A stretch of 64,000 nucleotides of DNA from Breznakiella homolactica (GTDB lineage Bacteria > Spirochaetota > Spirochaetia > Treponematales > Breznakiellaceae). The notes below the pieces were generated by a model. It did not search any database, had not been told where the DNA came from, and was given only the letters and a program-made list of their open reading frames with translations. Position numbers and translations under genes: made by a program. Positions 12,711-54,307 of the stretch are shown piece after piece; within the stretch, counting starts at the first letter, position 1, and the number at the start of each line of letters is the position of its first letter. Where the stretch lies: positions 4,526,001 through 4,590,000 of the forward strand of contig NZ_CP067089.2 of the NCBI RefSeq assembly GCF_016616095.2, read 5' to 3'.

Positions 12711-12852
12711 CGGCTGCCTTGTAAATAACCATGCTTCTGTGCCGCTGTTCCCCGGATAAGGCAGACGCTCTGCCCCGGGAAGGGGTGCCGGGTATGGCGG
12801 ATGTTTCGGGGTGATCGGTTCCGGCGATACGGTATTCGCCGGGAAATAGAAA

Positions 12853-13132
12853 TATACCTAACGGTAGGTATATTATGGAGTCACAGATTCGGACATATAC
12901 CGACCGCACACGCGGGAACCAGGAGTGGGGGTGATGGAAGCCCCCGGAGCGAAAAAACCGAAGGTTTTGCCGTGAGGAGGCTGGAAGCAGGGGGAGCAGC
13001 CCGCGCGACCGGGCAGCACCCAGCCGGTTAAGCCGGAAAGTACCCGGGCCGTAATGGTTACGCCGGGGGCGCAGAACCCGCGGCGCCGGAAAACACGGGT
13101 GCTTTCCGGATTTAAAGAGCCTGTGCTCCCCC
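12853..13132 (+). repeat. Dispersed structured intergenic repeat, copy A (full)
   Basis: Within the 480-bp gap between murB and the cyclic-nucleotide gene. It begins with TATACCTA-ACGG-TAGGTATA (12853-12872), continues with a part shared with copy D (ATTCGGAC, then GCGGGAACCAG and TGGGGGT), and ends with a branched core. The closing arms are GGGGGAGC (12990-12997) and GCTCCCCC (13125-13132). P2 is GCCCG (12999-13003) with CGGGC (13010-13014). A long P3 hairpin pairs 13033-13046 with 13096-13109, with one T-G pair. Bases 12711-12852 before it hold only short hairpins and no gene. Confidence 0.8.
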
Positions 13133-13140
13133 ATTAACCG

Positions 13141-13170
13141 TTGACAAAGCCCGGAAAGGGTCCCTATACT
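13141..13170 (+). promoter_or_regulatory. Sigma-70-type promoter directly after repeat copy A
   Basis: TTGACA (13141-13146), 18-bp spacer, TATACT (13165-13170), starting 8 bp after the repeat ends. It is placed to transcribe the cyclic-nucleotide-domain gene at 13191. Confidence 0.65.
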
Positions 13171-13190: not shown

Positions 13191-14435
13191 TTGGGGATGG
13201 GGATGGCCGGTCAGCTGCAGCTCACGTTTGTTAATTTTAAGAAAGACTCATATATAGTGGTTGAAGGCAAGCAGAATGCCGACCGTTTTTTTATTATCCG
13301 CCAGGGTAAAGTCCGTATATCGAAAGAAGTCGAAGTTGTTGAGGAAGAAGGCGGCAACATCCTCGGTCCCGGCGATTTTTTCGGCGTCGTTTCCACTATG
13401 TCCATGCACAGCCACATCGAAACCGCCCAGGCCATCACCGATGTAACCTTGATTTCCGTTGCCAAGGATCAGTACGGTCAGCTTATACAGAATAACACCC
13501 CCGTGGCGATGAAGATTATTCTCCAGTTCTCACGGCGGATGCGGTATCTCGATGAAGCCCTTACACGGCTGACCCTCAAAAATACCGCGGAAAACGACCC
13601 GTCCCATCTGTTCAAAGTAGCGGAATATTACGCGAAGCAGAGCCAGTACAACCAGGCCTATTACGCGTACCACCAATATGTCAAATACTGCCCCCAGGGC
13701 CAGAACGTAAACCTGGCCCGGGAGCGGATGATGAAGATAGCGCCCTACGCCAGCGCGGTCAAACTCAAACACGGCGCCGATGAATTCAACCGGACCTATC
13801 CCAAGGATTCCATGCTTTTTTCCGAGGGGGAGCCCGGGGATGAGCTGTACATCATCCAGAAAGGGTCGGTAAAAATTACCAAAATCGTGGACAATAACGA
13901 AGTGCTCCTGGCGGTTCTCAAAACCGGGGATATTTTCGGGGAAATGGCCCTCCTGGAATCGAAACCCCGTTCCGCCAGCGCCGTGGCCTATGAGGATACC
14001 ATGGTTCTCGCGGTAAACCGGGCCAATTTCGAGCGCATGGTCGGGACCCAGCCGCAGATTATTGCCCGGCTCACCCAGCTTTTGTCCGAACGGATCTGGT
14101 TTATTTACAAGCAGCTCGCCAATACCCTGATTACCGATCCTCTGGGCAGAATGTACGACGCGCTGCTTATCCAGCTTGAAAAGAACCGGGTGGATACCCT
14201 TTCCCACGCGGGTTATACCTTTGACTTCGGCCCCAAAGAACTGGTCAACATGGTCGGACTTCCCCAGGGCGACGGTACCCTGGTACTCCGAAAGCTCCTG
14301 GAAAACTCGAAAATCCGGGTTGTGGGAGAGAAAATAAACCTCGCGGATATTTCGGAAATCGCGAAACAGAGCGAATATTACCGGAAAATGCAGAAAATCG
14401 AAAAAGCCCGCCGGGAATCCACGGTCTGGTCGTAG
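13191..14435 (+). CDS. Protein with two cyclic-nucleotide-binding domains
   Basis: 414 residues. An N-terminal cNMP/Crp-type beta-roll (about 10-110) is followed by a helical TPR-like middle (about 135-195) and a second cNMP domain (about 205-310) with GEPGDELYIIQKGSVKI and GDIFGEMALLESKPRSASAVA, which is close to the phosphate-binding cassette. The C-terminal part (about 310-400) resembles the winged-helix region of Crp regulators but is divergent. It may be a cAMP- or c-di-AMP-type sensor or regulator; the ligand is unknown. The start is uncertain among TTG 13191 (AGAGGA 10 nt upstream), ATG 13197 and ATG 13203. From memory, T. pallidum has a homologue beside murB. Confidence 0.85.
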   Translation: MGMGMAGQLQLTFVNFKKDSYIVVEGKQNADRFFIIRQGKVRISKEVEVVEEEGGNILGPGDFFGVVSTMSMHSHIETAQAITDVTLISVAKDQYGQLIQNNTPVAMKIILQFSRRMRYLDEALTRLTLKNTAENDPSHLFKVAEYYAKQSQYNQAYYAYHQYVKYCPQGQNVNLARERMMKIAPYASAVKLKHGADEFNRTYPKDSMLFSEGEPGDELYIIQKGSVKITKIVDNNEVLLAVLKTGDIFGEMALLESKPRSASAVAYEDTMVLAVNRANFERMVGTQPQIIARLTQLLSERIWFIYKQLANTLITDPLGRMYDALLIQLEKNRVDTLSHAGYTFDFGPKELVNMVGLPQGDGTLVLRKLLENSKIRVVGEKINLADISEIAKQSEYYRKMQKIEKARRESTVWS

Positions 14436-21868: not shown

Positions 21869-21897
21869 ACTATCCGATGCGGGGAAGCCTTTGTCAA
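21869..21897 (-). promoter_or_regulatory. Candidate promoter for lhr directly after repeat copy B
   Basis: On the minus strand TTGACA (21897-21892) is 5 bp beyond the repeat end. After 17-19 bp comes a weak -10 (GATAGT or TAGTAA, about 21874-21867). The lhr ATG is at 21862. Confidence 0.45.
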
Positions 21898-21902
21898 GAA
21901 AT

Positions 21903-22204
21903 GGGGGAGCAGCGAGTCTGGCAAGCCGGAAAGCACCCGGTGAGTACCATCATGGCCGGGTGCTTTCCGGCTTAACCGGCTCGGTGCTGCCCTGAAAAGA
22001 GGGCTGCTCCCCCTCGCTCCAGCCTTGCCGCACTATTTGTGGAGTTTTGCGGAGCAAAACTCCTAAAAGACTTGCCGCTTTTAGCGGTAAGTCTTACGCT
22101 ACCCCCACTTCGGATCCCTGGGGTCTGCTTTACCGGTTTTCCCCCATAATTCACCCATCTCAATAATAGTTTTCTTTAATAAATCCTACCTACCGTTAGG
22201 TATA
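21903..22204 (-). repeat. Dispersed structured intergenic repeat, copy B (full, reversed)
   Basis: Occupies most of the 488-bp gap between lhr and the NfeD-like gene, pointing toward lhr. The head palindrome arms TACCTA/TAGGTA are at 22187-22202. Two extra hairpins lie in the middle: GGAGTTTTGC with GCAAAACTCC, and GACTTGCCGC with GCGGTAAGTC. In the core, P2 is GCCCT/AGGGC (21989-21993 and 22000-22004). P3 is a perfect 18-bp hairpin (21923-21940 with 21956-21973). GGGGGAGC starts at 21903. Bases 22205-22350 hold no gene and lead into the NfeD-like gene. Confidence 0.8.
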
Positions 22205-49171: not shown

Positions 49172-49310
49172 CAGGGCACCCGCAGTATGCGGCATCCCTG
49201 GTACAGAAACATGTGGATACCATATCCGGGGGGCCTGTCTGGGGATAGGGCGTCTGGCGCGTGTCCGAAGGACGACATGGAGCCATACCCTTTTGTATCT
49301 GATGGGACCC

Positions 49311-49363
49311 GCGGCACCGGTAAAACCGGGTGCTTTCCGGCTTGCCAGACCCTGTGCTCCCCC
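49311..49363 (+). repeat. Dispersed structured intergenic repeat, copy C (truncated to the promoter-side end)
   Basis: This part matches the end of copies B and A: GGGTGCTTTCCGG, then CTTGCCAGAC, then GTGCTCCCCC (to 49363). The head palindrome and the left core arm are not seen in 49172-49310, which holds only small hairpins such as CCGCA-gta-TGCGG. A short local hairpin GCACCGG/CCGGGTGC replaces the long P3. No gene is visible in the gap 49172-49434. Confidence 0.65.
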
Positions 49364-49370
49364 TCCTTAC

Positions 49371-49399
49371 TTGACCGAGCCCTTCCCCTGTGGTAATTT
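49371..49399 (+). promoter_or_regulatory. Sigma-70-type promoter of yajC, just after repeat copy C
   Basis: TTGACC (49371-49376), exactly 17 bp, TAATTT (49394-49399), beginning 7 bp after the repeat. The same -10 hexamer occurs before gap. Confidence 0.6.
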
Positions 49400-53953: not shown

Positions 53954-53976
53954 GCCGGATTTTCGCCGGCAGTTTT

Positions 53977-54275
53977 TATACCTAACGGTAGGTATAATGG
54001 ATGTAAAACATTCGGACCCGCACCCGCCATTACCCGGGAACCAGCAATGGGGGTAGGACGGGATACGGACTAATGTCCGTGTTCTGTAAAGAATAGTTTA
54101 TATAATCGCTTACGCGATTTGCAAATCGCCGCGCCCGTTGGATAATATACCAGTACGGGCTCTGTGAGACCGCACAGCAGTAACGGTACAGCGGGTGAGG
54201 AAGCCCGTCCGCAGGGGGAGCCGCCCTCCTGACAGGGCAGCATAGAGCCGGCTTGTCAGTCTCGGTGCTCCCCCC
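53977..54275 (+). repeat. Dispersed structured intergenic repeat, copy D (full head, shortened core)
   Basis: Fills most of the 450-bp gap between ispH and valS. The head TATACCTA-ACGG-TAGGTATA (53977-53996) and the ATTCGGAC/CGGGAACCAG/TGGGGGT segment match copy A. Middle hairpins include ACGGAC-taat-GTCCGT and the palindrome GCGATTTGCAAATCGC. The core starts GGGGGAG (54214) with P2 GCCCT/AGGGC (54223-54227 and 54234-54238) and ends GCTCCCCC, but the long P3 hairpin of copies A and B is deleted. Confidence 0.8.
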
Positions 54276-54278
54276 GCA

Positions 54279-54307
54279 TTGAATACTTTTTTTCTATGTA
54301 TTACTAT
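54279..54307 (+). promoter_or_regulatory. Candidate promoter of valS directly after repeat copy D
   Basis: TTGAAT (54279-54284), 17 bp, TACTAT (54302-54307), starting 3 bp after the repeat. It predicts a leader of about 90 nt. Confidence 0.5.

Follow-up and report, generated by a model that had tools for sequence, protein, structure and literature searches.

The genome of Breznakiella homolactica harbors approximately 170 copies of a palindromic intergenic repeat, and most of the copies that face a gene start end within a few base pairs of the -35 box of a predicted sigma-70 promoter, in a fixed orientation relative to that promoter. Dispersed bacterial repeats are usually described by their copy number and as “intergenic”, but in this genome the members of one family are placed and oriented so exactly that they mark upstream promoter edges almost to the base pair. 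We give about even odds to the view that this is a high-copy palindromic repeat of the BIME/MITE type that has been placed one-way just upstream of pre-existing sigma-70 promoters, with purifying selection acting elsewhere.

Repeat copies in the 64-kb window

The window is a 64-kb stretch (positions 4526001-4590000) of the single-contig 4.65 Mb genome, which is the sole member of its genus among the genomes searched. Four copies of the repeat (A to D; Table 1) were located at the positions given in a first-pass annotation of the window, and the genes 3' of A, B, C, and D encode cNMP-binding, Lhr, YajC, and ValS proteins, respectively, based on Pfam. The annotation held that each copy adjoins the promoter of the next gene in the same orientation, and this is so for all four. 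Counting from GCTCCCCC to the -35 box, its gaps for A, B, and C were confirmed, while the 3 bp that it gave for copy D came to 4 bp on recount. The 8-mer GCTCCCCC is not significant by itself (10 occurrences in the window compared to 5.8 expected); what it marks is the visible tail end of a large repeat.

Table 1. Repeat modules, promoters, and adjoining features in the window, in window coordinates
Feature	Position	Strand	Details
Module I remnant, 5' of copy A	12711..12790 (end approximate)	+	CCATGCTTCTGTGCCGC..., right behind murB stop
Module II near-palindrome, copy A	about 12855..12878	+	TACCTAACGGTAGGTA
Copy A, Module III	12914..13132	+	5' GGGAACCAGGAGTGGGGG ... GGGGGAGC (12990) ... terminal GTGCTCCCCC, last base 13132
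cNMP-binding gene promoter (predicted)	13141..13170	+	TTGACA 13141-13146, N18, TATACT 13165-13170; copy A gap 8 bp
cNMP-binding-domain gene, 3' of copy A	13197..14435	+	Pfam
lhr promoter (predicted)	21869..21897	-	TTGACA 21897-21892, N17, GATAGT 21874-21869; copy B gap 5 bp
Copy B, Module III, short inner form	21903..22116	-	Terminal arms 111 bp apart
Module II, copy B	22187..22203	-	
Copy C, composite	49172..49363	+	Module I outer end CAGGGCACCCGCAGTAT, flush with TGA of upstream ORF, to Module III GTGCTCCCCC; Module III without its 5' part
yajC promoter (predicted)	49371..49399	+	TTGACC 49371-49376, N17, TAATTT 49394-49399; copy C gap 7 bp
Intrinsic-terminator-like hairpin, 3' of ispH	53956..53979	+	Copy D lies between hairpin and valS promoter
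Copy D, Module III	54036..54274	+	5' GGGAACCAGCAATGGGGG
valS promoter (predicted)	54279..54307	+	TTGAAT 54279-54284, N17, TACTAT 54302-54307; copy D gap 4 bp

Structure and copy number

The unit that underlies these copies is a nested, hairpin-forming palindrome of 110-320 bp. Its copy number was estimated using BLAST with copies A and B together with a 30-base pattern of the 3' end, which at up to three mismatches had 167 matches genome-wide (91 + 76) and none when the pattern was reversed as a control; a few matches come from the palindrome's other arm, and these were dropped from the read sample by hand-made rules. Module III begins with GGGAACCNGRAGTGGGGGTAGCG, continues through one or two short hairpins to GAGGGGGAGC and a nested palindrome, whose stem varies but remains self-complementary and whose inner loop is AGCGACTTTCGAGGCCGCAGGCCGACGAGGAGCC; the module closes with GGTGCTCCCCC. 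Many Module III copies are preceded on the 5' side by Module II (TACCTAACGGTAGGTA) and by the palindromic Module I (GAAGCATGG...CCATGCTTC), which has the same inner loop as Module III in inverse orientation. Arms of GGGGGAGC and GCTCCCCC exist, and GGGGGAGC lies inside the 5' boundary. In the window, near-palindromes of the TACCTAACGGTAGGTA type at 12860-12877, 22187-22203, and 53968-53994 lie ~45-70 bp 5' of the GTGGGGG start of several copies, and they look like either a dyad operator or another mobile end.

The stem arms are distinct in 34 of 37 copies, with a mean of 12.5 of 14 positions paired. This pairing can have been kept by selection or can result from template switching, which in palindromes can yield paired arms without selection. 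Identity between full-length copies has a mean of 0.78 and a maximum of 0.91, so no very recent copies are seen. All 17 copies found via their 5' end keep an intact terminal sequence (GCGCCCCC in one of them), and in three of 51 aligned copies (elements 1291767, 3172688, and 4405711) the inner hairpin has the opposite orientation to that in the rest. A search of Rfam 15 returned no family at the gathering threshold, with eukaryotic miRNA hairpins as the sole sub-threshold matches, and we therefore rejected a known structured RNA family as an identity for the repeat.

The exact 3' boundary could be read twice, directly after GCAT, using paralogous RHS fragments. Beside the copies at 3947272 and 3949484 are two orphan RHS fragments that align with intact paralogs from the fifth base past CCCCC, and the 3' end of the element at these sites is therefore ...GCTCCCCCGCAT. 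A C-run followed by GCAT or TCAT was found in 40 of 129 copies, and GCAT continuing directly into AATGA was read at both RHS junctions and at a nested copy (L015). No target-site duplication was seen at the RHS junctions. Within 3946997-3958444, copies of the repeat split truncated RHS-core fragments from C-terminal or orphan ORFs.

Docking at predicted promoters

We read 129 of the ~170 ends, sampled by pattern and by stretch, using gene calls from a home-made caller and promoters predicted as matches to the sigma-70 consensus. A gene start was faced by 110 of these ends, and in 86 of the 110 a sigma-70-like promoter (score of at least 8) was found with its -35 box at 0-12 bp. The 129 consist of 109 ends and a further twenty copies, nearly all of which were picked up by their 5' end and not their 3' end; these twenty dock likewise. 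The docked promoters include that of a tRNA (4457436). For the 59 best promoters (score of at least 9), the gap between the element end and the -35 box has a median of 6 bp (IQR 5-6). In the 109 ends, which were chosen by element sequence alone, promoters scoring at least 9 of 12 were present at 0-10 bp in 52, compared to 3.3 in shuffles, and 23 had a score of at least 10, compared to 0.4 in shuffles; windows further downstream of the same ends gave 0-4 promoters scoring at least 9 of 12. The -10 box is independently enriched at a spacing of 17, where 42 of 90 have at least four of six matches (about 7 at most other spacings), and -10 matches peak sharply at spacings 17 and 18. Past position +8 of the element end, sequence information is near zero, and the genes downstream of the examined copies have no common function.

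This is a compact genome: the median spacer without an element is about 70 bp between co-directional genes, 140 bp between divergent genes, and 43 bp between convergent genes. These spacers served for a null model in which insertion was uniform from the preceding gene to the -35 box; it placed 28.6 of 94 ends within 10 bp of the -35 box, with a maximum of 46 in 20,000 trials, compared to the 76 of 94 observed. Compactness explains part of the closeness, but neither the 5-6 bp mode nor the orientation, and the docking is not reproduced by random insertion, shuffles, or unselected windows. The claim of the first-pass annotation that such tight spacing is unlikely by random insertion thus extends from four copies to the genome.

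The same is true of its claim that orientation follows the promoter. In co-directional gaps, the 3' end of the repeat points toward the gene start in 54 cases and toward the preceding stop in 8 (p about 2e-9), and there are 52 divergent sites versus 9 convergent ones. The further question that it raised, whether all copies genome-wide sit upstream of -35 boxes, is answered yes for most start-facing ends but no for every copy: 18 of the 129 ends face a gene end instead. Thirteen of these 18 stop 0-4 bp from the stop codon, and no promoter was found at the 3' end of the copies that face gene ends. This abutment was missed by the first-pass annotation, and any promoter-only model must explain it. 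A few other copies are located within RHS fragments or nested in another repeat; in one such case, L015, the second repeat lacks its left part. The occurrence of divergent copies in unrelated flanks, together with this nested copy, indicates that the element has dispersed.

Two other observations concern these sites. Docked promoters (in L014, L028, L029, L047, and others) often have an ATG a few bases from the expected transcription start, which suggests that many of the docked genes may be leaderless or have very short 5' leaders. The outer ends of Module I (e.g., at 1852520, 77383, and 2619671) also sometimes abut a -35 box, with 6 of 38 scoring at least 9 compared to 0.9 in shuffles, although two of these six flanks look paralogous.

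Promoter ancestry and related elements

To order the promoter and the repeat in time, the yajC region was compared across relatives (18 loci). Here, the yajC promoter lies at -64, about 60 bp ahead of the ATG. TTGACC with a -10-like box occurs at about -60 to -64 of yajC in at least five other genera in which the repeat is absent, and several order-level relatives carry TTGACG or TTGACT at the -35 position. As the same promoter is kept in repeat-free genera, the yajC promoter is older than the repeat. The spacer 5' of the -35 box is 31-140 bp in several relatives and 7 bp here, and the native spacer has gone rather than been split. The case of valS is weaker because the promoter-to-ATG distance differs; in several relatives ispH is its direct neighbor, with TTGAA-type promoters and no repeat. 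Across the genome, the flanks of the most similar copies are as alike as those of random pairs (0.263 vs 0.263).

A DNA search of 120 genomes of the family, together with a 22-base pattern run on 15 of them, found the 5' module in at least 12 other genomes, with up to 26 copies each. The related elements in other genera have the form GGGGGTAGCG...CTTCCCCC and share the 5' module (GGGGGTAGCGTAAGACTTGCCGC hairpin) and the C-run 3' end, while their inner part differs. We read 55 of these copies, of which 28 face gene starts and 21 face gene ends; there was no promoter enrichment at their 3' ends and no orientation bias, and stop codons often lie 17-30 bp from their ends. The element family is therefore old and widespread, and promoter docking is a feature of the variant found here. 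A single longer-form copy in another genus stops 7 bp short of a TTGTCG that has a TATGCT-like -10 box downstream. In other genera of the family, the wider GGGGGTAGCG...CTTCCCCC / AACAGGCCCCCC family is often found behind GCGGGGGCGTTGCGGGGG...CCCCCGCAGA and is not promoter-docked. In two genera, a convergent gene with a gyrB-like C-terminus is followed at 24-26 bp by a related element, which may reflect one old insertion common to both or a site used more than once.

The exact inner motif had one match in about 85,000 species genomes, a set from which the source genome is possibly absent, and we judged this match to be due to chance because it lies inside a topoisomerase-like coding sequence. 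The exact 3'-end pattern had no match in viral contigs, and in 58 relatives the 3'-end pattern had scattered three-mismatch chance matches only. Our literature search found no paper on such repeats in spirochetes.

Possible origins of the docking

How might a repeat come to occupy these positions? In the reading to which we give about even odds, copies would be spread by a putative enzyme acting in trans, insertion would be favored at exposed DNA just 5' of the -35 box, insertions elsewhere in transcribed or coding DNA would be lost through selection, and those facing the 3' end of a gene would be kept only if the stop codon stayed intact. Any effect of the repeat on transcription would then possibly be secondary. 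Against this, no transposase is linked to the repeat, insertion guided by RNA polymerase does not predict abutment at stop codons, the homologous 5'-module elements of relatives lack promoter docking, and the loci compared showed neither a target-site duplication nor a fully intact empty site. A stricter form, which we consider unlikely, has the insertion machinery itself recognize promoters (e.g., sigma-70 RNA polymerase bound to the -35 box, at its upstream edge), so that at well over 100 sites the element points the same way and its 3' end stops 5-6 bp short. If true, this would make the repeat a bacterial mobile DNA counterpart of the promoter-targeted retroelements of yeast. Of the options offered by the first-pass annotation, that of an element inserting at -35 boxes is supported; a part in promoter function, as an activator site or supercoil-sensitive cruciform, would be a putative one. 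A further option, that it carries an outward -35 box or a whole promoter, as Correia elements can, would explain the near-constant distance, but we consider this extremely improbable: we ruled out a carried -35 box based on the ancestral yajC promoter, the unrelated flanks of similar copies with near-zero information past +8, and the promoterless copies at gene ends, and the RHS junctions also place the end of the element ahead of any -35 box.

It is also conceivable, though on the doubtful side, that the repeat has been domesticated as a boundary or regulatory element, with copies held 5-6 bp from the -35 box as promoter insulators. Such copies may stop read-through, shield 3' ends, take up supercoiling by forming a cruciform, or be bound by a protein beside the -35 box. 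The very uniform spacing and orientation fit this, as do the intact terminal sequence in 17 of 17 copies and the inner arms that vary but remain paired, and no separate terminator was recognized behind 54 of the 64 upstream co-directional genes. However, the downstream genes examined share no function, there are copies that abut stop codons or are embedded in RHS fragments or another repeat, a few have their inner hairpin inverted, and template switching alone can make paired arms. Trimming, in which varied intergenic insertions were followed by deletion of dispensable DNA up to the -35 box or stop codon, where selection halts the loss, seems quite improbable to us. It accounts for abutment at both kinds of site and is in line with the shortened yajC spacer and with the second repeat in L015 that lacks its left part, but it predicts a broad spread of gaps with intermediates, whereas the observed IQR is 5-6 bp and few copies are beyond 12 bp, and the orientation bias and one-sided loss are not accounted for. 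Uniform spacing favors targeted insertion or a functional boundary, and stop-codon abutment favors trimming. The docking is either a way of choosing targets that is new for mobile DNA in bacteria, or the recruitment of a repeat to serve as the usual boundary of promoters; in both cases it offers a sequence landmark from which many of the genome's transcription starts should be predictable.

Comparison with known repeat families

REP units are about 20-40 nt in length. The docking repeat resembles REP/BIME elements (PMC2817692) in having more than 100 intergenic palindromic copies that are mosaics of inverted units and usually non-coding, and the high-copy palindromes in alternating orientation that typify REP/BIME are present (167 ends, with Module I an inverted relative of Module III). 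Hairpins of the GGGGTAG-CG and GGGGAGC kind are found (cf. the GTAG/GGAG foot of REP), but within a 110-320 bp unit of nested hairpins that sits at -35 boxes and has no linked RAYT. REP/BIME elements are mobilized by RAYT (Y1) transposases (PMC2817692), and the sole gene for a Y1 transposase of the REP-associated type found in this genome (2483369-2483677) is single-copy and bordered by GGGACAGAGT inverted repeats unrelated to the docking repeat. As this gene is not flanked by the docking repeat, we rejected a RAYT as the mobilizer. Among the 17 copies found by their 5' end, none was an autonomous, ORF-bearing copy of the kind expected for a MITE family, and the 3' end lay within about 130-320 bp in all of them.

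The BOX elements of Streptococcus pneumoniae are modular, hairpin-forming, intergenic, and of high copy number, and the docking repeat shares each of these features; BOX elements are not known for a fixed docking distance to -35 boxes. The Ty3 and Ty1 elements of yeast and Tf1 of fission yeast are retrotransposons with integrases that insert at a defined distance from promoters, and the docking repeat, which is not a member of those elements, looks like them in its placement and may work in a similar way. Correia repeat enclosed elements (CREEs) of Neisseria can create a promoter at their ends (PMC2649163). The docking repeat is similar to CREEs as a MITE-like dispersed repeat near genes, and CREEs can affect transcription, but it adjoins a pre-existing promoter and has no recognized simple terminal-repeat/TA structure. 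A terminal repeat that supplies a promoter, as in CREEs, was not found, given the ancestral yajC promoter and the lack of conservation past +8. Because a linked RAYT and a promoter of its own, the defining features tested, are absent, the docking repeat is a member of neither the REP/RAYT nor the Correia elements, and it works like REP/BIME, MITE, and BOX repeats.
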